NCBI RefSeq assembly: GCF_026341775.1
Contig: NZ_JAPEOB010000001.1
Coordinates: forward strand, 1,364,001-1,428,000
DNA length: 64,000 nt
DNA from: Streptomyces sp. NBC_00654
GTDB lineage: Bacteria > Actinomycetota > Actinomycetes > Streptomycetales > Streptomycetaceae
Reading direction: 5' to 3'
Position 1 is the first letter of the stretch, and each line of letters opens with the position of its first letter. The notes beneath the pieces are model-generated. The model saw nothing but the letters and a program-made list of their open reading frames with translations. It did not search any database and was not told the DNA's origin. Made by a program: the position numbers and the translations under genes. Below, piece by piece: positions 4,109 through 34,594 of this stretch.

Positions 4109-5689
<1,581 letters not shown>

Positions 5690-21892: not shown

Positions 21893-24800
21893 TCAGCTGC
21901 CGTACCGCTCCACGGCATAGGAGCGCGCGAAGCTGTAACCGGTCAGCGCCTCCCAGCTGCTCACCGGCTTGGCAAACGTACGGTTCGCCTGCGCCGACCA
22001 GGTCCACGCCCTGATCGTGCCGTCGTCGTACCCGTACAGGGCACCGAAATCGTCCATGCCGTCGCCGTTGTAGTCGCCGATGACGATCGACATGTGGTCG
22101 CGCCACATCGCCCCGGCGGGCGTCGTCCACGCTTCGGCCACAGAACCGAAAGTGCCTGTCGCACTGCTGGGGAAGGTGTAGATGCTGTCGTGACCGTCGG
22201 CGTAGTCGTACCAGGCCGCGATGTCGTCGCGCCCGTCACCGTCGAAGTCCCCGGCATGGACCGTTGTCCGGTTCCAGTCGCCCCACGACGTGCTGGTCCA
22301 TGAGCCGACGGGATAGGTGAACCCACCGGTCGGTGCCGCGAGGAAGGTGAAGATCTTGTTGCTTCCGTCGGAGTATCCGTGGAAGACGGCCAGATCATCT
22401 CGACCATCCCCGTTGAAGTCCCCCGTCACCTGCTTGTCACGGGAGGACGTCCAGTTGCCGGAAGGGCTCGACCACGAGCTGAACGGGGCGTTGAAACCAC
22501 CCCGGACATCCGCGGTGAAGGTCCACAGGGCGTCGCGGCCGTCCGCGTAGTCGTACCAGACGGAGACGTCGTCACGGCCGTCACTGTTGAAGTCGCCGCT
22601 GCTCAGGGTCATGCGCTTGAAGCTCCAGTTGCCGGCCGGAACCTGCCACGACACGAACGGGGCAGCGAAGTTCCCCTGCGTGTTGCCGAGCCAGGTCCAC
22701 AGGGCGACCCGGCCGTCGTCGTAGCCGTAGACAGCGGCGACATCGCCGATTCCGTCGCCGTTGTAGTCACCGGTGGTGCGCTTCATCCGACTGACCGCCC
22801 ACGAATCCGCGGGCACGTTCCACCCGGTGAGCGGGTTCCTGAACGTACCGTCGGAGTTGGTCGGGAAACTGTGGATGGTGTCCGACTTGTCGGTGTGGTC
22901 GTACCAGTCGGCCATGTCACTGCGGCCGTCGCTGTTGTAGTCGTGCCTGAGGGCGGTGCCGCTGCTCCAGAGCGACTGGCCCTTGGCGTTGTGGATGACG
23001 AGGTTTCCGCGGTCCTGCAGGACCGCATACCCTTCCGCACCACTGGTCTTCGAGTCCCACAGGACGGTGGTGCCGTCCGCCTTGTAGACCACCAGGTTGC
23101 CCTTGGTCTGCATGACCGCCATCGCGCCGACGTTGCCGGCGGTCTTCGTCGACCACAGACGTTTGCCGGCGTTGGAGGTGATCTCCAGGTCGCCGTCGTC
23201 CTTCATGGTTAGTTCGGCCGACCGCGAGATGTAGGACTGCCCGCCCGTGAGCGTGGTGCCGGCCGGGATGCGGATGCCGCCGACGGCGCCGTCGATCGGG
23301 AACGCGGCTCCGAAGGAGAACTCGGATCCGGTCACCTTCCCGGGCCAGCCGGTCATGGTGTTGTCGGACTTGCGGGCCCAGAGATCGGCCATGCCGTCCC
23401 CGGTGAGGTCACCGACCGTGCCGAGAGTCGGGTAGGTACTCGCGGGGAATCCGCCGGCGATCTTCACCCGAGCCGTAGTGCCTCCCCAGGCGGTCGGGTC
23501 GAGAATCCCGTTGGGTCCCTCGCTGCCGTAGGTCCGCAGGATGTCTCCCGTGGCCTTGTTCCGGAGCCACAGGTCGGCAAGCCCGTCGTTGTTCAGGTCG
23601 CCCGGCGCCAGGACGGTGAACTTGTCCCAGTCGTCGCCTCCCACCAGCACAGGAGGGCTGAGCCGTTTGGTGTAGCCGCCGAAGTAGGCCCACAGGAGCT
23701 TGCCCTGCTGCACCAGCAGATCGGGTCTGCCGTCCGCGTTGATGTCACCGGGTGCGATGACCTGGCCTGCATCGCTCCAGTGGTCGTTACCGGTCCAGCC
23801 GGGCTCGCCGAAGCAGCCGGAGTCCTCGTCGACGACGGGGCATTTGACGGTGAGAGGCTGCTTGCCCTCCTTGTAGTTGGTGGTCGCGATGCCGAGACCG
23901 TTGTTCGTGTACGTCCAGAGGACCTTCCTCTTGAGGGCCGGGTCGTACTCAAGAGTGACCAGGTCGGTGTATCCGTCCTGACCCCAGTCCGTGCGATAGG
24001 TGATCGACGCGTCGTCGAAGGCCTGCCCGCCGTTGGTCGCCGAGGAGAATTCGCCGTTCTGCCGGCCCGAGTAGGTGAGCAGAGTGCCGTTGGAGTCGAC
24101 GCTCCAGATGTCCTTGCTGCCGTCGCCGTTGAGGTCGCCGGGAGCGTCACGGGCTGCCGAACGGGTCGCGTAGAAGATGTATGTCGCGGTGTCGGACTGG
24201 TTGCCCGCCTTGTCGACGCTGTACGCGTAGATGAAGTGGGCGCCGTATCCGGGTGCGCGTACGGTGACCGGGACCCCGGGCAGCACGTCGTTGAGCTCCG
24301 GAGCGGAACTGGACCACCAGACGTAGTGGTCCACGTCCGTCACACCATTGGGTGCGAAGCCGAATTTTCCTTCCTCACGGGCCTTGCCGGTCGTACTCGG
24401 CCACCCGTTCTCACCCGACGGGAACTTGCCGTCCAGGGACGAGATCGTCGGCGGTGTGCCCGGACGCGTACGGTCCACCGAGAACTTGCATGTGGGGCTC
24501 CAGCCCGAGGTGGCCTTCTGGGCGTCCTCGGCGCGGACCTTCCAGGTGTAGTCCCCGGTGGGTATCAGCGCGTCGGTGGTCGGCAGAGTCGCCACTCGCC
24601 CCTTCAGAGCACCGATCGACCGGTCGATGACCGGCGTGCTGCTGCCGCTCCTGAAGACCTGGAACTGCGCACTCAGGTTTCCGGCGTCGGGATCGTCGAT
24701 CGTGGCGAACAGGCTCACCTGGGTGTTGCCGATCAGTCCGCCCGCGGAGCAGGACGTCTTCGGATTCGTACCGAGACCGGAGGGAGCGTTGGGCGGATTG

Positions 24801-26284
24801 TTGTACTCGGTCTCCAGGACAGCGGTCTTGGCGTCGAACTTCTTCCAGCCGAACGTGTCGCTCTCGTTCTCCGCGTAGAGGCCGAGAGTGAGACTCGACC
24901 ACTTGCCCGCCGCGGCTTCGCGCGCCTTGGCGGTCACATCGAACTCAAGGTTGCCCGCCGCGCAGTCCTTGCTCCAGCCTTTGGACTCGTTCACCGTCTT
25001 CAGCGGCGAAGTACCCACCTTCGCGGGCTGGTTGTTCCAGGTCGTCTTCTTCGAGATCGCCTTGGTCTGCCAGATCTCGACGGGCCTGTCCTGGCAGGAC
25101 CAGGACCACACGTTCTTGATCCGGAAGGTCGACGACTTGACCTCGGCACCCTTGATGCTGTCGGTGTCGACCTGGAAGAAGGAGCGGGAAAGCCCGTTCG
25201 TCTCGTTCTCGTAGCCGACCCGGGCAACTTCGTTGGCGTTCCAGAAGGACGATTTGGGGTATTTCTTGTAGACCCGGGTCCAGTTCTCCTTCTTGCCCCA
25301 GGCCCAGGACGGGTCGATATAGACGGGGTATGTGGTGGCGGAACCCGTCAGCAGCGCCTGGTCGGGCTTGATCTCGATGCTGTCGCCACTGACAGTGGTG
25401 GGCATCTGCGCATCGGCCGCGCCCGGTGGTGGCTCGAATATGTCACCGGCCGCCGACCCCTCACCGGCGACGGTGGCGGACCTGGCTGCCGGCGTCGAGG
25501 AATCCGTACGGGAGTCCCACATCAGGGGAGTCGGGCTGGTGAACACCGTCTGCCCGGCGGGATCCACGGCGGCGAGGCTGCCGGACTCCGCGTCCGCCGA
25601 CACGGTGAGACCGACCGTCTTCATCTTGTAGGTAAGAGTGGCGAGTTCGGGATTTCTGGCCGCTTCGGCGGTCTTGACGACGAAGAGCTGGGAAAAGCCC
25701 TCGACCTCGGCCTTGAGTTGGAGGTCGACCCCGGGCAGCACCTCGCTGTACGTGGCCACGTTCTCGGTGAGCACCGGCGTGGGCAGTTCGGTCGGCCAGG
25801 ACAGCGTGAGCGTACGGCCGTCCTTGACCCCGGACAGCAGGGGGCCGGTGCCACCGCCGGAGAACGCGACACTGACCGTCGACGCTCTCGGTACCACGGT
25901 GCCGTCGGCGGCGAACGTCAGGCTGGGGTCGGTCGCCACCCAGGCCCCGTCCCGGAAGAGCCGGATCGGTGATCCGTATCGCTTGACGGAGAACGAGCCG
26001 TCGGGCTGTGCCCAGGTATCGGACACCTCGGTGCGCGCGGACATCAACTCGGCTGGGCTGCCGGTCGACTTGGCCTTCTCCAGAGCCCTGTCCTCTTCGC
26101 TGACGGAACCGTCGTCGACCGGGTCGTCAGCGGCGAGGGCGGCGCGCGGTGCGACGCCGGGCGAGGCCGTGGCGGTGACCGGAACGAGCGCTCCGGCTGA
26201 GCCGATGGCCGCGGCCAGAAGCAAAGAAACAGACCGATATGGCGGTTTGTTTCTCCTTCTGTGTTGCCTGGGTGTGTGTCTCAT
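21893..26284 (-). CDS. Large secreted DNRLRE / FG-GAP / bulb-lectin surface protein
   Basis: 1463 residues. A Sec signal (Arg/Lys-rich N-terminus, SVSLLLAAAIGSAGALVPVTATA) leads to a helical and beta region. About residues 320-430 match DNRLRE domains (WTRVYKKYPKSSFWNANEVA, then IWQTKAISKKTTWNNQP). An Ig-like stretch follows (FQVFRSGSSTPVIDRS). Several FG-GAP/VCBS repeats (DLNGDGSKDIWSVDS, DINADGRPDLLVQQG) come next, then a bulb-type lectin-like domain (about 1030-1120, ELTMKDDGDLEITS, LVVYKADGTTVLWDSK). It ends in six DYNGDG/DFDGDG repeats with Ca-loop-like Asp patterns. It is divergent from the RHS toxin and probably acts with it at the cell surface. ATG 26284 follows GAGGGG. Confidence 0.8.
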   Translation of the reverse strand: MRHTPRQHRRRNKPPYRSVSLLLAAAIGSAGALVPVTATASPGVAPRAALAADDPVDDGSVSEEDRALEKAKSTGSPAELMSARTEVSDTWAQPDGSFSVKRYGSPIRLFRDGAWVATDPSLTFAADGTVVPRASTVSVAFSGGGTGPLLSGVKDGRTLTLSWPTELPTPVLTENVATYSEVLPGVDLQLKAEVEGFSQLFVVKTAEAARNPELATLTYKMKTVGLTVSADAESGSLAAVDPAGQTVFTSPTPLMWDSRTDSSTPAARSATVAGEGSAAGDIFEPPPGAADAQMPTTVSGDSIEIKPDQALLTGSATTYPVYIDPSWAWGKKENWTRVYKKYPKSSFWNANEVARVGYENETNGLSRSFFQVDTDSIKGAEVKSSTFRIKNVWSWSCQDRPVEIWQTKAISKKTTWNNQPAKVGTSPLKTVNESKGWSKDCAAGNLEFDVTAKAREAAAGKWSSLTLGLYAENESDTFGWKKFDAKTAVLETEYNNPPNAPSGLGTNPKTSCSAGGLIGNTQVSLFATIDDPDAGNLSAQFQVFRSGSSTPVIDRSIGALKGRVATLPTTDALIPTGDYTWKVRAEDAQKATSGWSPTCKFSVDRTRPGTPPTISSLDGKFPSGENGWPSTTGKAREEGKFGFAPNGVTDVDHYVWWSSSAPELNDVLPGVPVTVRAPGYGAHFIYAYSVDKAGNQSDTATYIFYATRSAARDAPGDLNGDGSKDIWSVDSNGTLLTYSGRQNGEFSSATNGGQAFDDASITYRTDWGQDGYTDLVTLEYDPALKRKVLWTYTNNGLGIATTNYKEGKQPLTVKCPVVDEDSGCFGEPGWTGNDHWSDAGQVIAPGDINADGRPDLLVQQGKLLWAYFGGYTKRLSPPVLVGGDDWDKFTVLAPGDLNNDGLADLWLRNKATGDILRTYGSEGPNGILDPTAWGGTTARVKIAGGFPASTYPTLGTVGDLTGDGMADLWARKSDNTMTGWPGKVTGSEFSFGAAFPIDGAVGGIRIPAGTTLTGGQSYISRSAELTMKDDGDLEITSNAGKRLWSTKTAGNVGAMAVMQTKGNLVVYKADGTTVLWDSKTSGAEGYAVLQDRGNLVIHNAKGQSLWSSGTALRHDYNSDGRSDMADWYDHTDKSDTIHSFPTNSDGTFRNPLTGWNVPADSWAVSRMKRTTGDYNGDGIGDVAAVYGYDDGRVALWTWLGNTQGNFAAPFVSWQVPAGNWSFKRMTLSSGDFNSDGRDDVSVWYDYADGRDALWTFTADVRGGFNAPFSSWSSPSGNWTSSRDKQVTGDFNGDGRDDLAVFHGYSDGSNKIFTFLAAPTGGFTYPVGSWTSTSWGDWNRTTVHAGDFDGDGRDDIAAWYDYADGHDSIYTFPSSATGTFGSVAEAWTTPAGAMWRDHMSIVIGDYNGDGMDDFGALYGYDDGTIRAWTWSAQANRTFAKPVSSWEALTGYSFARSYAVERYGS

Positions 26285-26527
26285 TTCATTCCCCTCATGA
26301 AGTTCACAATTTCCGCGCCGACTTTAGGTCGTGACGTACGGGGCGGGGAATGGTGAATTCCGAAATGGACGGCAATGTGACGCCGCAGGGGTGGAGAGGA
26401 TTGGCTGACTAGTGATGCGTTTTCGGTACAGAAGGGGCAAGCTGTGCACACTTCAGGGGGTAGTGACTTTTCTGTGGAGATCCTGTTAGCTTCCGACGGT
26501 CATTCGTGGGGCGGCAAGGGGTGGGGT
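26285..26527. promoter_or_regulatory. Divergent promoter region of the surface protein and the RHS toxin
   Basis: A 243-bp gap, less GC-rich than its neighbours. A gttagcttcc segment at about 26484-26494 is a possible -10 for the RHS gene. I see no clear operator. Confidence 0.35.
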
Positions 26528-29500
26528 ATGCGCAGATTCAGAAGGACATGGTTGGCTATGCCATTGTCCGCAGCACTCTTGGTGGGAATTCTCCCGGGAG
26601 TGGCCTTTTCGGCTGATCCGGCTGAGGCGTCCGCGCGCCCGTCCACCCACATCGAGCAGCCGAAGGCCGTGCCGGTGGTTCCGGTCGAGTTTGGTGGCAA
26701 GAAGCGCAAGGACGACGCCAAGAGTCATCCCTGGCGGTCTCCGAAGGTCACCTGGCCGACCGCGTCGAGTGCCGACGTTGTGCTGGATCCCGCGAGCGGG
26801 AAATCCGTCCGGCCCGAGGACAGTTCGCCGGTCTCGATCGCCGCAGCCGCCACACATGCCACGACTGCCGGAACGCGGCAACGCAAGACCATGTCCGCGG
26901 AGGCCGGTCCGCCGGTGAAGGCCAGGGTCTCGGTCGCGAGCCGGGCCGCCGCCGACAGGGCGGGGGTGGACGGTCTGCTGCTCTCGGTGGAGCGCAGCGA
27001 CGAGAAGGCCGGCGTCCAGCCGGTGAGCGTGGCCGTCGACTATTCGACGTTCCAGGGGGCGTACGGCGGAGACTGGGCCGCACGGCTACGCCTCGTCGAA
27101 ATGCCCGCGTGCGCGTTGACGACGCCGCAGAAGTCGGGGTGTGGCACCACCACTCCGCTCAAGACCGTCAATGACACCGAGCGGAGGACGCTGTCGGCGA
27201 CCGCCTCGGTATCCGCAGGCGCACCGACTGTGCTGGCGGCGACAGCAGGGGAGTCGGGCGCGTCCGGCTCGTACAAGGCCACACCGCTCCAACCTTCGGG
27301 GGCGTGGAGTGCGGGTGGCTCGACAGGGTCGTTCAACTGGGCGCAGGAGATCGGAGTTCCGACCGTCCCCGGCGGACTGAAGCCCAGCGTTTCGCTGAAC
27401 TACTCGTCACAGAGCGTCGATGGCCGGACTGCCGCGTCGAACAACCAGCCCAGCTGGATTGGTGACGGGTGGTCCTGGGAGCCGGGGTACATCGAGCGGC
27501 GGTACAAGTCCTGCAACGATGACAAGGACGGCGGCACCAACACCACCAAGGTCGGTGACCGGTGCTGGTTCAACGACAACGCGACGCTGTCCCTCGGTGG
27601 CAAGACGACCGAGTTGGTGCATGACGCGGCCAAAGGCTGGCACCCGGCCCAGGACGCGGGCGAGAAGATCGAGAAGCTGACCGGCGCCTCCAACGGTGAC
27701 AAGGGCACCACCGGCGTCGATGGTGCCGGTGAGCACTGGAAGGTCACCACGACGGACGGGACGCAGTACTTCTTCGGCCTGAACCGGCTTCCCGGCTGGA
27801 GCGATCACGGCACGGCGGACGATGACCCGGTCACCAACTCCACCCTCACCGCACCTGTCTTCGGCAACCAGACCGGCGAGCCCTGCTACAACGCGTCGTT
27901 CGCATCCGCCTGGTGCCAGCAGGCATGGCGCTGGCAGCTCGACTACGTCGTCGACGTACATGGCAACGCGATGTCGTACTACTGGAAGACCGAGACCAAC
28001 AACTACGGCCGCAATGTCTCGGAGACCACGGGCAAGGCGACGGTCACCCCGTACGACCGTGGCGGGTACCTCGACCACATCGACTACGGGCTGCGTCACG
28101 GAGGTGCTTATACGGGCAAGGCAATGGGACGGGTCGACTTCGGTGTCGACGAAAGGTGTCTCAGCAGCTGTGGAACCTTCGACGCGGCGAACGCGAAGAA
28201 CTGGCCCGACGTCCCTTACGACCTGTACTGCAAGGACGGTGCGACGGAGTGCAAGGACCAGTACTCGGCGAGCTTCTGGTCCCGGAAGAAACTCTCCACG
28301 ATCACCACGAAGGTGCTGACCGGGGGGACGTACAAGGACGTTGATTCGTGGACGCTCAAGCAGGGCTTTCCGGCCTCCGGTGATGGCCTCTCCACGCCCA
28401 TGTGGCTGGAGTCGATCCAGCGCACCGGAAAGACAGGAGGCAGCGAGACGCTTCCGCCGGTGACCTTCGCGGGTGAGCAGTTGGCCAATCGGGTCGACAA
28501 GACCGGGGACGGTCTGGCTCCGTTCATCCGGTTGCGCATGAATCAGGTGATCAATGAGACCGGTGGTGAGATCGGCGCGTACTACTCCGATCCCGACTGC
28601 ACTGTGACCACGTTGCCGGCCGCTGACGGGACGAACAAGACCCGTTGTTTCCCCGTGAAGTGGGCCTTCGAAGGAGAAACGGCCAAGCTGGACTGGTTCC
28701 ACTCGTACGTGGTGACCAAGGTCCAGGAGGGCGACAGACGTGACGAGACTCCGGACACGATCACCAAGTACAGCTATCTGGACGGCGCAGCGTGGGCCAA
28801 GAGCACGGATGAGTTCACCAAGAAGGACGACCGGACCTACTCGGTGGCTCGCGGGTACGGCCGGGTGCAGACACGTACGGGCGGCATCGAATCGGGGCCG
28901 ACGCTGACGGAGGCTCGCTACTTCCGGGGGATCGACGGCGCCGCCGTGGAGAACTCGGCAGGCGCGGCGGTCACGGACCGTGAGCAGTTCGCCGGCGTGA
29001 CGCGCGAGAGTGCCACGTACAACGGCGACGACACCTCCAAGCTCGTGTCCGCTGTGTCCTACACCCCTTGGCGTTCGGCTCTCACGGCCAGCCGGACCCG
29101 CGCCGACCTGCCGGACCTGGAGGCGTACCTCACCGGCACGCTGAAGGAGGAGGAGCGGACTTCGACAGCGTCCGGCACCCGGACCACCTCCCTGACACGG
29201 ACATTCGACGGCTACGGGCAGGTCACTTCCGAGTCCGATACGGGCGACACGGCGAAGACCGGGGACGAGAAGTGCACCACCACCACGTACGTCGCCAACA
29301 CGACGAGCCGTCTCCTCGATGTGGTCGCTCAGAAGAAGACCGTGGCGGCACTGTGCGGCGACGCGGCGGGCACGGGGAGTGTGATCAGCGACGAGCGCAT
29401 GTACTACGACGGAGCTACGTCGTTGACGGCTGTGCCGTCCAAGGGCGACGCGACCAAGGTCGAGAAGCTCAACGGCCTCGGCACGGGCTACGACACGGTG

Positions 29501-32500
29501 GCCGCGACTCCCGCAGCCGACTTCGATGTCTACGGACGGGCGCTGTCGGCCACCGATGCCTACGGCAAGGAGACCGAAACGGTCTATACGCCGGTGCAGG
29601 GGGAGGTGCCGACCAGGACTCTGGTCACCAACCCTCTCGGCCACCAGATCACCACTGACGTGGACCCACTGCGCGGTCTGCCGGTCAAGGTGACCGATGC
29701 GAATGCGCGGGTCACGTCGACCGCGTACGACGCGCTGGGCCGGGTGACGAAGGTCTGGCTGCCTTCCCACCCCGCCGCCACCCAGCCCGATCTGCCGAGC
29801 CAGTCGTTCGAGTATCAGATCCGCAAGACCGGTCCCGTCGTCGTCACGACGAAAACCCTTAACTACCGTTCCGCCTATGGGGTCTCGTACACCTTTTATG
29901 ACGGACTGATGCGGGAGATGCAGTCTCAGGCGAAGTCCCCGGACGACGAGGGACGCCTGGTCACCGAGACCCGCTACAACAGCCGAGGGCAGGCCTGGCA
30001 CAGCTCGGGTGTGTACTACGCCACCGGGGAGGCGGAGCCCGTCCCGGTGACCGCGATGGATCTCAAGTACCCGGACGCGACCGAGACGCTCTTCGACGGC
30101 GCGGGCCGCACTGTGGCCCTGATCTCACGCAACCACGGTGAGGAGACCAAGCGCACCACCACGAGCTACACGGGCGATACGACGACCGTCATTCCGCCCG
30201 CTGGCGGAACCGCGACCACCACCGTCACGGACGCTCTAGGCCGTACCACGGAGCTGAAGCAGTACACGGATGCGGGAAGGGCCAAGTCCCAGTCCACGGT
30301 GTACACGTACAACAAGCTGGGGCAGTTGGAGCAGGTCACCGATCCGTCGGGTGCGACCTGGAAGTACGGCTACGACGCCGCAGGCCGACAGGACCATGTC
30401 GAGGATCCCGACAAGGGAGCTTCGGACACCGCGTACGACGAGGGCGGGCGTGCCACCGATGTCACGGACGCCCGTGGCATCACTCTGCACACCGCCTACG
30501 ACGATCTGGGGCGCCCCACCGCGCTCACCCGGGGCGCCACGAAGCTGGCCGACTGGGAATACGACAAGTCTTCCAAGGGCCTCGGGCAACTCTCCAGCAC
30601 GACTCGCCATGACGGGGGAAACACTTACATCAGCACGGTCGTCAATTACAACGCTTTCTACAAGCCGGTCGTGAGCCGCTTCACCGTTCCTGCCTCGGAA
30701 GGCGCCCTGGCTGGTACGTACGAGTGGACGGACGTCTACAACACCATTACCGGCCAGCTGATGGAGTCGGCGCAGCCCGCCATGGGCGATCTCCCGGACG
30801 AGGCTGTCACCAACGCGTACGCGTTCAGCGCCGGCCTTCCCGTGTCGGTGTCCGGTGGTGACGACATCGCCATCCTGGCCTCGGTGAGTTACGACCACTA
30901 CGGTCGTCCTCTTGAGCAGGCGTTCGGCGCAATTGCCCAACAGCTCTGGAAGAGGCGTCAGTACGACCAGCACACGGGGGAGCTGACCCAGGCTTCCACC
31001 GAGCGTGACGTCGAGCCGCGCTTCATCGACAACGTCAGCTACACCTATGACCTCGCAGGCAATATCAAGAAGATCGGTACGGTAACCGGCCAGGACGCCA
31101 CCGTCGTCAGCGACACCCAGTGCTTCGGTCTCGACACCCTGCGCCGCATCACCGACGCCTGGACCGCGACCGATGACTGCGCGGCCGCGTCCCCGACCGC
31201 GGCGGTTATCGGCGGTCCGGACCCGTACTGGACCACGTACACCTACGATGCCGTCGGCAACCGCAAGACCGAGACCCAGCACACCGCAGCGGCCGGTCCC
31301 GCCACGGATACGGTGCGCACGTACCAGGCTCCCGAGGCGGGAACGCACAACCTTCCCGGTATCACACAGACGGGCACGAACCAGCACACCGAGACCTATA
31401 CCTACGACGAGACAGGCAACACTCGGACCCGCAAGATCGGCAACGCCGATCTGCAGGACCTCACGTGGGATACCGAAGGCCATCTGGCTTCCGTCACCGA
31501 AGTCACCAGCACCACCAACTACCTGTACGACACGTCGGGTAGCCGCATGGTGCGACGCGACTCGACCGGGACCACGCTCTACCTGCCCTTCGGCAACGAA
31601 CTGCACCTCGACAAGGCCGGCAAGGTCACGGGTACCCGCTACTACACCGCAGCGGGTGAAACCGTAGCCCTGCGCAAGGGCGGGAAGCTCAGCTTCCTGA
31701 TCAACGACCACCACGGCACCAGCACCACTCAGGTCTCCGCGGACGCGGCCCAGACCGTCACCCGTCGTCAGAGCACCATCTTCGGCGCGCCCCGTGGTTC
31801 CCAGCCCACAACATGGGCCGGGGACAAGGGATTCGTCGGCGGAACGAAGGACCCCGACACCGAACTCACCCACCTCGGCGCCCGCGAGTACGACCCGGCC
31901 AGCGGCCGCTTCATCAGCGTCGATCCGATCCTGGACCTCGCCGATCCCCAGCAGGCACACGGCTACACCTACGCGAACAACAACCCCGTCTCCTTCAGTG
32001 ATCCCAGCGGGCTGCGGCCCGACGGCCCGGTCGGTGGCAACGACTACAACGATGTCCGCAGTACGACTGATGGTTCGAACAACGGGAAGGCCGGCAGCGG
32101 ATGGTTCCGCGACAGCCAAGGAGGCTGGAGCTACCGACACCAGCAGTACTGGCCCGGGCACCTCGGTAGCAAGGTAAGCGGCGTCACCACCGTCTCCTAC
32201 TCCTGGTCCTCGCGCGTGAGGGCGAAGGGGAAGCCCGTCAGCGGCTATGTGATCCCGCACCCGAAGGTCGCCCCGAAGAACTTCTACACGAAGTGGGTCG
32301 CACCGATCGCGGTATCCGTCCTGCTGCCGGATGTGCAGGCATGGCAGGACTGCGGCGGCGGTGACCTGAGCCAGTGCGGCTGGTCGGCCACGGACCTTCC
32401 GCTGCTGAAGCCTCTGAAGGCGATCAAGGGGGCCAAGAAGGCCGTTGACGCCGCCTCGACTGCGGCCAAGAAGTGCCACAGCTTCCTGCCGGGCACCCGA

Positions 32501-33208
32501 GTTCTGCTGGCAGATGGCACAAGTAAGAAGATCGAGGACGTCGAGAAGGGGGACGTCGTACTCGCCACGGACCCGGATACCGGTGAGACACGGTCCAAGG
32601 AAGTCATCGAGACCATTCTGACCAAGGATGACAAGGACTTCACCGAGCTCAACGTCACCACGGATATGGGCGAAGCCAGCATCGTCGCCACGGACACCCA
32701 TCCCTTCTGGTCGGTGAACCAGAAGAAGTGGCTCGACGCGGGGAAAGTACAGCCGGGGACCAAGCTGCTCACATCCGATGGTCGTGATGTCGAGGTCACT
32801 TCGACGCGGCACTATACGAAGCGGCAGCAGACGCACGACCTCACGGTTGAGGGCATCCACACGTACTATGTGCTGGCGGGTGCCACGCCGGTCCTCGTGC
32901 ACAACTGCAATCTGTTTGATGGACCTGGCTGGCAACACGTGCTGGATGAGCACGTAGATGGAAGTCCGGGAGTGGTTTCAGGAAACACTACTTTCTCCAA
33001 TTATATGGATCTGGATGAAATTGGAGAATTGATTGAGGGTGCCGCTAAAACTCCCGGGCGGCGAAATACCCCTGATGCAACTGGGCGTCCTCGCGACGGA
33101 ACAATTCACACGTACGATTTCGATTACCCTGTTGGGTCTCGAGGTGAAACTAGCGTCGAAGTGATTCTCAATCCAAACGGATCTCTGCGTACCGCCTACC
33201 CGAGGTGA
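26528..33208 (+). CDS. RHS/YD-repeat polymorphic toxin with HINT domain and C-terminal toxin tip
   Basis: 2226 residues. A Sec signal (MRRFRRTWLAMPLSAALLVG, then VAFSA) predicts export. An N-terminal part with a conserved GSFNWAQEIGVPTVPGGLKPSVSLNYSSQSVDG segment leads into many YD repeats (residues about 950-1750, such as YDAAGRQDHVEDPDKGASD and YDDLGRPTALTRG). The RHS core sits near 1780 (HLGAREYDPASGRFISVDP, then YANNNPVSFSDPSG). A HINT autoprotease spans about 1983-2126 (CHSFLPGTRVLLADG, TDTHPFWSV, and the end TPVLVHNC). The last 100 residues, after HNC, are the variable toxin. They start GWQHVLDEHVDG and end TAYPR, suggesting a BECR-fold ribonuclease. GC and codon bias drop sharply at the toxin tip. 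ATG 26528 precedes the signal; 26444 would add 28 residues. Confidence 0.88.
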   Translation: MRRFRRTWLAMPLSAALLVGILPGVAFSADPAEASARPSTHIEQPKAVPVVPVEFGGKKRKDDAKSHPWRSPKVTWPTASSADVVLDPASGKSVRPEDSSPVSIAAAATHATTAGTRQRKTMSAEAGPPVKARVSVASRAAADRAGVDGLLLSVERSDEKAGVQPVSVAVDYSTFQGAYGGDWAARLRLVEMPACALTTPQKSGCGTTTPLKTVNDTERRTLSATASVSAGAPTVLAATAGESGASGSYKATPLQPSGAWSAGGSTGSFNWAQEIGVPTVPGGLKPSVSLNYSSQSVDGRTAASNNQPSWIGDGWSWEPGYIERRYKSCNDDKDGGTNTTKVGDRCWFNDNATLSLGGKTTELVHDAAKGWHPAQDAGEKIEKLTGASNGDKGTTGVDGAGEHWKVTTTDGTQYFFGLNRLPGWSDHGTADDDPVTNSTLTAPVFGNQTGEPCYNASFASAWCQQAWRWQLDYVVDVHGNAMSYYWKTETNNYGRNVSETTGKATVTPYDRGGYLDHIDYGLRHGGAYTGKAMGRVDFGVDERCLSSCGTFDAANAKNWPDVPYDLYCKDGATECKDQYSASFWSRKKLSTITTKVLTGGTYKDVDSWTLKQGFPASGDGLSTPMWLESIQRTGKTGGSETLPPVTFAGEQLANRVDKTGDGLAPFIRLRMNQVINETGGEIGAYYSDPDCTVTTLPAADGTNKTRCFPVKWAFEGETAKLDWFHSYVVTKVQEGDRRDETPDTITKYSYLDGAAWAKSTDEFTKKDDRTYSVARGYGRVQTRTGGIESGPTLTEARYFRGIDGAAVENSAGAAVTDREQFAGVTRESATYNGDDTSKLVSAVSYTPWRSALTASRTRADLPDLEAYLTGTLKEEERTSTASGTRTTSLTRTFDGYGQVTSESDTGDTAKTGDEKCTTTTYVANTTSRLLDVVAQKKTVAALCGDAAGTGSVISDERMYYDGATSLTAVPSKGDATKVEKLNGLGTGYDTVAATPAADFDVYGRALSATDAYGKETETVYTPVQGEVPTRTLVTNPLGHQITTDVDPLRGLPVKVTDANARVTSTAYDALGRVTKVWLPSHPAATQPDLPSQSFEYQIRKTGPVVVTTKTLNYRSAYGVSYTFYDGLMREMQSQAKSPDDEGRLVTETRYNSRGQAWHSSGVYYATGEAEPVPVTAMDLKYPDATETLFDGAGRTVALISRNHGEETKRTTTSYTGDTTTVIPPAGGTATTTVTDALGRTTELKQYTDAGRAKSQSTVYTYNKLGQLEQVTDPSGATWKYGYDAAGRQDHVEDPDKGASDTAYDEGGRATDVTDARGITLHTAYDDLGRPTALTRGATKLADWEYDKSSKGLGQLSSTTRHDGGNTYISTVVNYNAFYKPVVSRFTVPASEGALAGTYEWTDVYNTITGQLMESAQPAMGDLPDEAVTNAYAFSAGLPVSVSGGDDIAILASVSYDHYGRPLEQAFGAIAQQLWKRRQYDQHTGELTQASTERDVEPRFIDNVSYTYDLAGNIKKIGTVTGQDATVVSDTQCFGLDTLRRITDAWTATDDCAAASPTAAVIGGPDPYWTTYTYDAVGNRKTETQHTAAAGPATDTVRTYQAPEAGTHNLPGITQTGTNQHTETYTYDETGNTRTRKIGNADLQDLTWDTEGHLASVTEVTSTTNYLYDTSGSRMVRRDSTGTTLYLPFGNELHLDKAGKVTGTRYYTAAGETVALRKGGKLSFLINDHHGTSTTQVSADAAQTVTRRQSTIFGAPRGSQPTTWAGDKGFVGGTKDPDTELTHLGAREYDPASGRFISVDPILDLADPQQAHGYTYANNNPVSFSDPSGLRPDGPVGGNDYNDVRSTTDGSNNGKAGSGWFRDSQGGWSYRHQQYWPGHLGSKVSGVTTVSYSWSSRVRAKGKPVSGYVIPHPKVAPKNFYTKWVAPIAVSVLLPDVQAWQDCGGGDLSQCGWSATDLPLLKPLKAIKGAKKAVDAASTAAKKCHSFLPGTRVLLADGTSKKIEDVEKGDVVLATDPDTGETRSKEVIETILTKDDKDFTELNVTTDMGEASIVATDTHPFWSVNQKKWLDAGKVQPGTKLLTSDGRDVEVTSTRHYTKRQQTHDLTVEGIHTYYVLAGATPVLVHNCNLFDGPGWQHVLDEHVDGSPGVVSGNTTFSNYMDLDEIGELIEGAAKTPGRRNTPDATGRPRDGTIHTYDFDYPVGSRGETSVEVILNPNGSLRTAYPR

Positions 33209-33213
33209 TGGCG

Positions 33214-33663
33214 ATGGAAGAATTGTCTCTGCATTGGAATATGGTTCGGCCCGGATCGGCCAACCTCATTCTGCGATTTCCGCATGAGGTCATCGAAGTG
33301 CACACCACATATGTGGGAGATGGTCTCCGCTCTGTAGTGCAAGCTGCCATCGATCTCCGACTGGGGTCAAGCTCGGCAACGGCCTTCCTTCCTGCCGAAC
33401 CTGCGGGTACCTTCCTGTTTTTTACGGGAGCAGACGAAGAGGTGTACTTGCAGGTCGTTCAATTCGCGGACATGGAATCAGAGTCTCGTCGCTGGAGTGG
33501 CGGCAATCTGCGATGGTGCGGTCGGATCGACGTTCGTACACTTATCCGCAGCGTAGTGGTAATGGCTGACGACGTGCTCGTTCAGTGTGGCGGAGCTGAC
33601 GCGTATGCAAGGGAGTGGGGTGGAATCACTTTCCCGATTCGCGAGTTGGGGAATCTCCGGTAG
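33214..33663 (+). CDS. Probable immunity protein for the RHS toxin
   Basis: 149 residues, soluble, acidic, with an alternating beta/helix pattern (NLILRFPHEVIEVHTTYVG, GTFLFFTGADEEVYLQVVQF, IRSVVVMADDVLVQCGG). No family recognised. It starts within 6 nt of the toxin stop and shares its low GC. In polymorphic toxin systems the gene directly after the toxin tip encodes the specific inhibitor, so immunity is inferred from position. GAGG at 33202-33205 best fits ATG 33214; GTG 33205 and ATG 33208 overlap the toxin stop and are alternatives. Confidence 0.7.
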   Translation: MEELSLHWNMVRPGSANLILRFPHEVIEVHTTYVGDGLRSVVQAAIDLRLGSSSATAFLPAEPAGTFLFFTGADEEVYLQVVQFADMESESRRWSGGNLRWCGRIDVRTLIRSVVVMADDVLVQCGGADAYAREWGGITFPIRELGNLR

Positions 33664-33859: not shown

Positions 33860-34315
33860 GTGGCCCGCACCGAGTACTACGACGACCCGGCGCGCCCAAG
33901 CCGAACAGCGCGGTCGTCACCGCATCCGCCGTTGTCACCGACGACTACGGGCGCATCCTCCTACAGCGCCGCCGCGACAACGACCTATGGGCCTTGCCCA
34001 GCGGAGGCATGGACCTCACCGACCCCCTACCCGGCACAGACGTCCGCGAGGTCAAGGAAGAGACCGGCCTCGACGTAGAGATCGCCGGCCCTGTGGGCAC
34101 CTACACCGACCTGAAACACATCATCGCCTACACCGACGGCAAGGTCCGCCGACAGTTCAACGTCTGCTTCACCGGTGGCCAACTAGCAATCTCTGACGAA
34201 TCCACCGAACTCCGTCGTACCGCCGGAAGAGATCGAACATCTGCTGATGCAATATACCCAACGACTCAGGATCCAATACTTCCTGGAACATCGCGAGAAG
34301 CCGTGCGTGGGCTGA
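33860..34315 (+). pseudogene. Nudix hydrolase pseudogene with two frameshifts
   Basis: Joining three frames reads VARTEYYDDPA, then SAVVTASAVVTDDYGRILLQ, LWALPSGGMDLTDPLPG, the Nudix box REVKEETGLDVEIAG, GKVRRQFNVCFTGGQLAISDES, and finally PPEEIEHLLMQYTQRLRI to a stop at 34313-34315. The first shift is near 33890-33900 and the second near 34210-34220. Relatives would be about 150 residues. Nudix enzymes hydrolyse nucleoside diphosphates linked to other moieties. The catalytic box is intact but no single frame encodes the protein, so it is probably dead. A sequencing error at both sites is the alternative. Confidence 0.75.
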
Positions 34316-34594
34316 ACCGCCTGACGGCAGTAGCGACGGCAACAACTCCGCACAACTACGCAGCTCACCGGACCGGCAAACCGCACTTGACCCTGCGAGA
34401 AATAAAGTCGAAGGCTTCGAGTAGCACGCACACTATGTGCTGGTGGGCGAGACTCCGGTCCTCGTCCACAATTGCGGAACGGCTGATCCCTAAAGTTTCA
34501 AGCGGACCGAGGCATTGTCCGGTGAAGAGGTAGCCGCTGTCCTTCCATCCCGCCCCTGATGCCTCGCGTTCCTGGAGTTCCCGGTTGCGGCGCA
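34316..34594 (+). other. Gene debris containing an orphan HINT tail
   Basis: At 34431-34493 the frame reads HYVLVGETPVLVHNCGTADP and a stop. This closely matches the end of the RHS toxin's HINT domain (YYVLAGATPVLVHNC) but follows an in-frame stop (tag, 34421-34423). It is a relic of another toxin C-terminal cassette, with its toxin lost beyond a few codons. The rest of the segment shows no coding signal. Confidence 0.7.

Follow-up and report, generated by a model that had tools for sequence, protein, structure and literature searches.

A 64,000-nucleotide stretch of the genome of Streptomyces sp. NBC_00654 (contig NZ_JAPEOB010000001.1, positions 1,364,001 to 1,428,000; referred to here as the window), a soil bacterium with a genome of 9.6 Mb, contains an RHS-HINT polymorphic toxin gene followed directly by a small partner gene. 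The toxin gene is an uninterrupted open reading frame on the forward strand (26444..33208) that encodes 2254 amino acids when counted from GTG 26444 and 2226 from ATG 26528, the latter being exactly the length reported in a first-pass annotation of this DNA. Its N-terminus resembles a Sec signal as judged by eye alone, and RHS repeats, an RHS core, and a PT-HINT domain all score above cut-off in Pfam and NCBIfam. The RHS repeat-associated core (TIGR03696) lies at 31814..32014 on the forward strand (residues 1791-1857). It is followed by a PT-HINT autoprocessing domain with a THPFW motif at 32474..32905 on the same strand (PF07591, residues 2023-2154, 63.4 bits versus a cut-off of 27.7). We placed the first Cys of HINT at 32474-32476 by eye, while the PF07591 match itself begins at residue 2023. 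The domain ends in HN and the junction HN|C follows directly, so that the HNC ending described in the first-pass annotation stands. The rest of the protein is a C-terminal tip at 32906..33205 on the forward strand, supported by a composition step, profiles, and a predicted structure; as had been noted, it comprises 100 residues with its N-terminal Cys included (CNLFDG...RTAYPR). The partner gene (33208..33663, forward strand) encodes 151 residues from ATG 33208, which overlaps the TGA stop of the toxin gene by one base (TGATG); GTG 33205 and ATG 33214 are also possible starts. Our data suggest that the tip is an EndoU-like domain with a BECR fold and that the partner is its immunity gene.

We found that base composition changes abruptly at the start of the tip. 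The GC content at third-codon positions (GC3) is 0.84 upstream of HINT, 0.81 in HINT, 0.43 in the tip, and 0.58 in the partner gene. The best GC3 change point is codon index 2155, no more than one codon away from the HN|C junction (2154 is the first index of the tip), with a log-likelihood ratio of 36.3. Furthermore, among 100-codon windows of the reading frame, GC3 is lowest in the one that begins at codon 2149 (0.43), while the minimum elsewhere is 0.69 with the last 200 windows excluded. Total GC is 65.6% upstream of HINT and 60.5% within it, falls to 51.2% across the tip, and rises to 56.1% over the partner gene. Since total GC already dips within HINT, the sharp step at HNC is confined to third-codon positions, and the reported drop exactly at HNC holds for these positions but not for total GC. 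Likewise, the low GC said to continue through the next gene is better described as a partial recovery.

A tip-region search returned 17 full-length proteins, of which P0004 belongs to the window itself. The remaining 16 RHS proteins have tips 63-92% identical to that of the window, while their HINT domains are 38-61% identical and their best local backbone segments 28-41% (the 28% value is that of P0016, aligned over 159 backbone residues only). In the reverse comparison, the stretch from RHS core to HINT was searched against 295 genomes, 52 of which matched at 1e-60 with the window's own included. We read 29 of the 57 places besides our own, namely the best place of each best-matching genome, and 28 of these were readable (a contig end truncates L116). 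Other tips were found in 27 of the 28, including the three nearest backbones (66, 56, and 56% identical), whose tips are all unrelated; the remaining locus (L099) carries a related tip of type II. Among weaker backbone places, one (in genome G217) carries a type I tip, the type of the window, its match being limited to residues 254-454 of the stretch at 57% identity, and another (in G111) has a compact EndoU tip at its end. The window's own genome has four PT-HINT places, and the two of its three paralogues that were read also end in unrelated tips. The conserved backbone thus carries variable tips, and the same tip sits on different backbones. Conservation of the tip across backbone relatives, which the first-pass annotation named as a refutation, is not seen.

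Displaced copies were found as well. On plasmid pSCL3 of Streptomyces clavuligerus, an RHS gene ends in a different tip with its own downstream gene, and approximately 100 bases beyond lies a window-type tip that lacks residues 1-19 (90% identity across residues 20-100). An intact gene of the partner's family comes next (immunity I; 83% identical). The window itself contains a relic of an older cassette at 34407..34523 on the forward strand, approximately 0.75 kb past the immunity gene, composed of the tail of a HINT domain (HAHYVLVGETPVLVHNC, immediately preceded by a stop) and the opening 17 residues of another kind of tip, which are 82% identical to the tip at locus L118 and contain a stop. 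The pSCL3 copy and the relic together indicate that the cassette is found both in its active place and displaced. The proposal of a swapped toxin-immunity cassette in the first-pass annotation is thus borne out by like tips on distant backbones, other tips on near ones, a partner that tracks tip type, and the displaced pSCL3 copy. Composition, backbone comparison, and displaced copies together make the locus a clear example of a swapped cassette.

We asked how closely the partner family follows the tip. Profiles of the tips (A1, 15 sequences), of immunity I, and of a second family, immunity II, were run over loci L001-L119. The count covers 38 distinct tips with at least 75 matched residues, type I being defined by a GSP motif; fragments below 75 residues (L062, L073, L078-L082, L085) and duplicates were left out. 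For all nine type I tips, the window's included, immunity I lies 3' of the toxin and no more than 300 bases away (265 in L067, at most 26 in the others). None of the 29 tips of other types has immunity I, and 27 of them have immunity II within 900 bases; L056 and L077 have neither in range, with immunity II lying approximately 1.8 kb on in L056. Since the immunity profiles were built partly from counted loci, these numbers show an association and are not a blind prediction. Three loci may have stacked immunities. In L046, a type I locus, immunity I is followed at a distance of 598 bases by a distant immunity II (4898-5251), and L060 (4393-5373) and L071 (422-1402), which share one tip sequence, have tandem immunity II genes behind a single tip.

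The predicted structure of the partner suggests a CdiI-ECL/PUR/Whirly-like fold, and Foldseek matches it best to CdiI of Enterobacter cloacae (4NTQ), an immunity protein of contact-dependent inhibition (CDI). The two are 10% identical, and the toxin paired with 4NTQ differs from our tip in that it resembles only colicin E3 and not EndoU. Comparison by hhalign does not support a single sequence family made up of immunity I, immunity II, and the proteins encoded next to compact EndoU tips (EndoU-side) (probabilities (Prob) of 5.3 for I versus EndoU-side, 1.6 for I versus II, and 6.8 for II versus EndoU-side), and we treat their similar element order as a lead only. Glr2806 and CpcN matched the partner's profile A2 (3e-4 and 5e-4, with no stretch passing alone) and were discarded because they are absent with the larger profile A4. 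In the literature searched, nothing links CdiI with Whirly or single-stranded DNA-binding.

No Pfam or NCBIfam model scores above cut-off for tip or partner, and scans with alignments of their relatives gave weak matches only. PHROGs (best 0.013), PADLOC (nothing at E up to 1), and sequence searches of the PDB (no usable match) added no name for either. DUF4258 was considered because it matched one member of alignment A3 (best E 0.0024); it is present in 6 of 80 genomes. The Pfam family matched by most tip relatives is EndoU_bacteria (8 of 15 in A1 and 6 of 31 in A3, E up to 1), while DUF4258, DUF6972, and three other families match one relative each at the same threshold. The profile search suggested in the first-pass annotation linked the tip to compact EndoU domains. 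Against a five-row compact EndoU profile, hhalign gave Prob 90.7-91.2, with an E of 1e-6 when one comparison is counted. None of 200 and none of 150 shuffled controls reached this level, so that the profile similarity of the tip to genuine EndoU domains is significant. Under the default match-column rule the alignment spans 46 columns in the N-terminal half, and under another rule the full 79 columns. Among the EndoU comparisons, the five-row compact profile alone is strong, with single sequences reaching Prob 4.2 (L125) and 62.3 (L124).

The tip resembles bacterial EndoU toxins (PF14436; e.g., CdiA-CT of STECO31) in that its HxxxxH through TAYP is colinear with compact EndoU. It differs from them in being one 100-residue unit instead of two subdomains, and in having a different immunity family. 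Because it scores below the curated PF14436 threshold (16.9 bits versus 25.3) and lacks a conserved Lys, we call it EndoU-like and not a PF14436 member. As judged from these profiles, it is a compact single-unit EndoU-like domain, a nearer family than the BECR-only guess made earlier.

That guess nevertheless agrees with the predicted fold. The tip model (predicted local distance difference test score, pLDDT, of 94.5) consists of helices and a four-strand meander, i.e., the BECR layout of an N-terminal helical segment and then four strands, although its first strand covers only 51-53. The Ser/Thr expected in the fourth BECR strand is T96 (strand 94-99), a Thr in 31 of 31 aligned rows. The solved structures that best match the model are ribonuclease (RNase) toxins, and the best match in BFVD is a phage protein named Colicin D (E 0.13). 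In our estimate, the tip very probably has a BECR fold, and it is probably an RNase. The leading alternative is that the tip belongs to the Ntox50/colicin D/CdiA-Ykris sort of BECR RNases and resembles EndoU through the shared fold only. We regard this as unlikely, though with a real chance of being correct, given the compact EndoU profile link (colinear from HxxxxH to TAYP) and the predominance of EndoU_bacteria among the Pfam matches. Furthermore, no match to Ntox50 (PF15542) is listed in the Pfam scans, and TAYP, whose Thr replaces the His, stands where the HxVP motif known from the literature is expected. Unlike the Ntox50 RNases YxiD (B. subtilis 6633) and MafB2-CT, the tip also has two His residues in and after its first helix. 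Set against the Ntox41 motif as described in the literature ([RK]H, [KR], [ST]xxP), R63 and T96xxP99 fit, while the residue preceding each conserved His is Q or E in the window and Arg precedes the second His in 19 of 31 rows.

Conservation points to the residues that may act in catalysis. H11, H16, R63, G65, T96, and P99 are invariant in a 31-row alignment whose other 30 rows are 21-88% identical to the window tip, and no Lys is invariant in these rows. The likely active residues are the two His, the Arg, and the Thr. Tyr98 is not counted among them, position 98 being variable (Phe in 11, Tyr in 10, and His in 5 of 31).

We propose that the RHS shell, presumably exported, would carry and protect the C-terminal tip, and that self-cleavage of HINT at its Asn-Cys junction (HN|C) would free the 100-residue toxin. 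The freed tip would most likely cut RNA of a rival cell (tRNA or rRNA) with no metal, with H11 and/or H16, in and just after the first helix, serving as the acid or the base, T96 located opposite on the last strand, and R63 stabilizing the transition state; the RNA product would end in a 2',3'-cyclic phosphate. That tRNA is the main target has, in our estimate, a little under an even chance. The partner would bind the tip and keep it blocked in the producing cell and in its kin, and tip and immunity gene would move as a single cassette from one RHS carrier to another, unrelated one. We assign a probability of approximately 0.8 to this reading as a whole, i.e., a HINT-released EndoU-like/BECR RNase tip on a secreted RHS carrier, with cognate immunity, in a mobile cassette. 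That tip and partner form a toxin-immunity pair is very probable.

Several observations weigh against this reading. The window tip has an isoelectric point (pI) of 4.66, the three type I tips computed are all acidic, and the partner is acidic too (pI 4.99), while the two type II tips computed are basic (9.89 and 9.42); the pairing of an RNase and an inhibitor that are both acidic is the chief feature that this reading leaves unexplained. The catalytic triad of EndoU is His-His-Lys in the literature, and the tip has R63 at the place where the Lys is expected. Moreover, 25 loci of distant partner relatives (L018-L042, 23-33% identical) have no tip in the flank examined (up to 1.5 kb, less in L031 and L033), contrary to a strict pair rule, and therefore the partner's wider family also occurs alone. 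In L036-L038, as read, the partner relative adjoins one similar second gene. The missing Lys, the variable position 98, and the acidity would suit a catalytically dead or non-RNase tip, e.g., a binding tip dependent on a factor of the target cell; we consider this improbable, since the six residues are invariant in all 31 rows and the immunity gene adjoins in nine of nine cases. That the partner is a housekeeping or accessory gene, as its tipless relatives might suggest, is very improbable in view of its nine-of-nine pairing by tip type (the association that the first-pass annotation had called for), the TGATG overlap, its CDI immunity match, and its retention beside the truncated tip of pSCL3. 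A joint reading, in which an actinobacterial compact EndoU-like clade swapped its catalytic Lys for an invariant Arg, its acidic type I branch needs a target-cell factor to reach RNA, and the branch immunities share a nucleic-acid-binding-like fold (CdiI-ECL/PUR/Whirly) without detectable sequence similarity, is speculative and rather improbable.

The pair belongs to a well-known kind of bacterial weapon, and the partner gene very probably protects its producer. The toxin literature drawn on comprises PMC3482391, PMC12700104, PMC9970974, PMC9086364, and PMC13392607. The locus shares with the RHS/HINT systems of Zhang et al. 2012 (PMC3482391) the RHS stalk, HINT, variable tip, toxin-then-immunity order, and cassette swapping, and differs from them in that tip and partner fall below every model cut-off. 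In literature on EndoU, Streptomyces, and immunity proteins, the pair is not named in titles or abstract openings, beyond which it was not searched for in print. These data name a previously unassigned toxin-immunity pair across several actinomycete genera, offer a compact EndoU-like putative RNase with an unusual active-site set, and help to annotate Streptomyces RHS proteins whose tips lack names.

Tip relatives (E 0.001) occur in 12 of 295 genomes of the genus (own genome included; one, L012, is unconfirmed by profile), 21 of 245 in the order sample, and 4 of 396 in the phylum sample. With all types pooled, tips are found in Streptomyces, Kitasatospora, Micromonospora, Glycomyces, Nonomuraea, Actinokineospora, and Promicromonospora, and Planotetraspora has a 17-residue piece only. 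Tips occur in 2 of 72,556 plasmid records and, at E 0.001, in none of 50,697 phage records. Among the compact EndoU tips (L124, L134-L138), a HINT tail is visible in four of six (L135-L138), and the gene downstream in L134-L138 belongs to family A7, which has no hhalign match to immunity I or II. L123 and L127 (G133:C17) are two EndoU matches in one open frame of 19,630 amino acids. Between the window's immunity gene and the relic, a NUDIX-like hydrolase sequence (approximately 33880-34310) apparently occupies two frames, as read by eye. Divergent to the RHS gene, 21893-26284 on the reverse strand encodes a 1463-residue protein with FG-GAP/VCBS-like repeats and an export-like start, again by eye.
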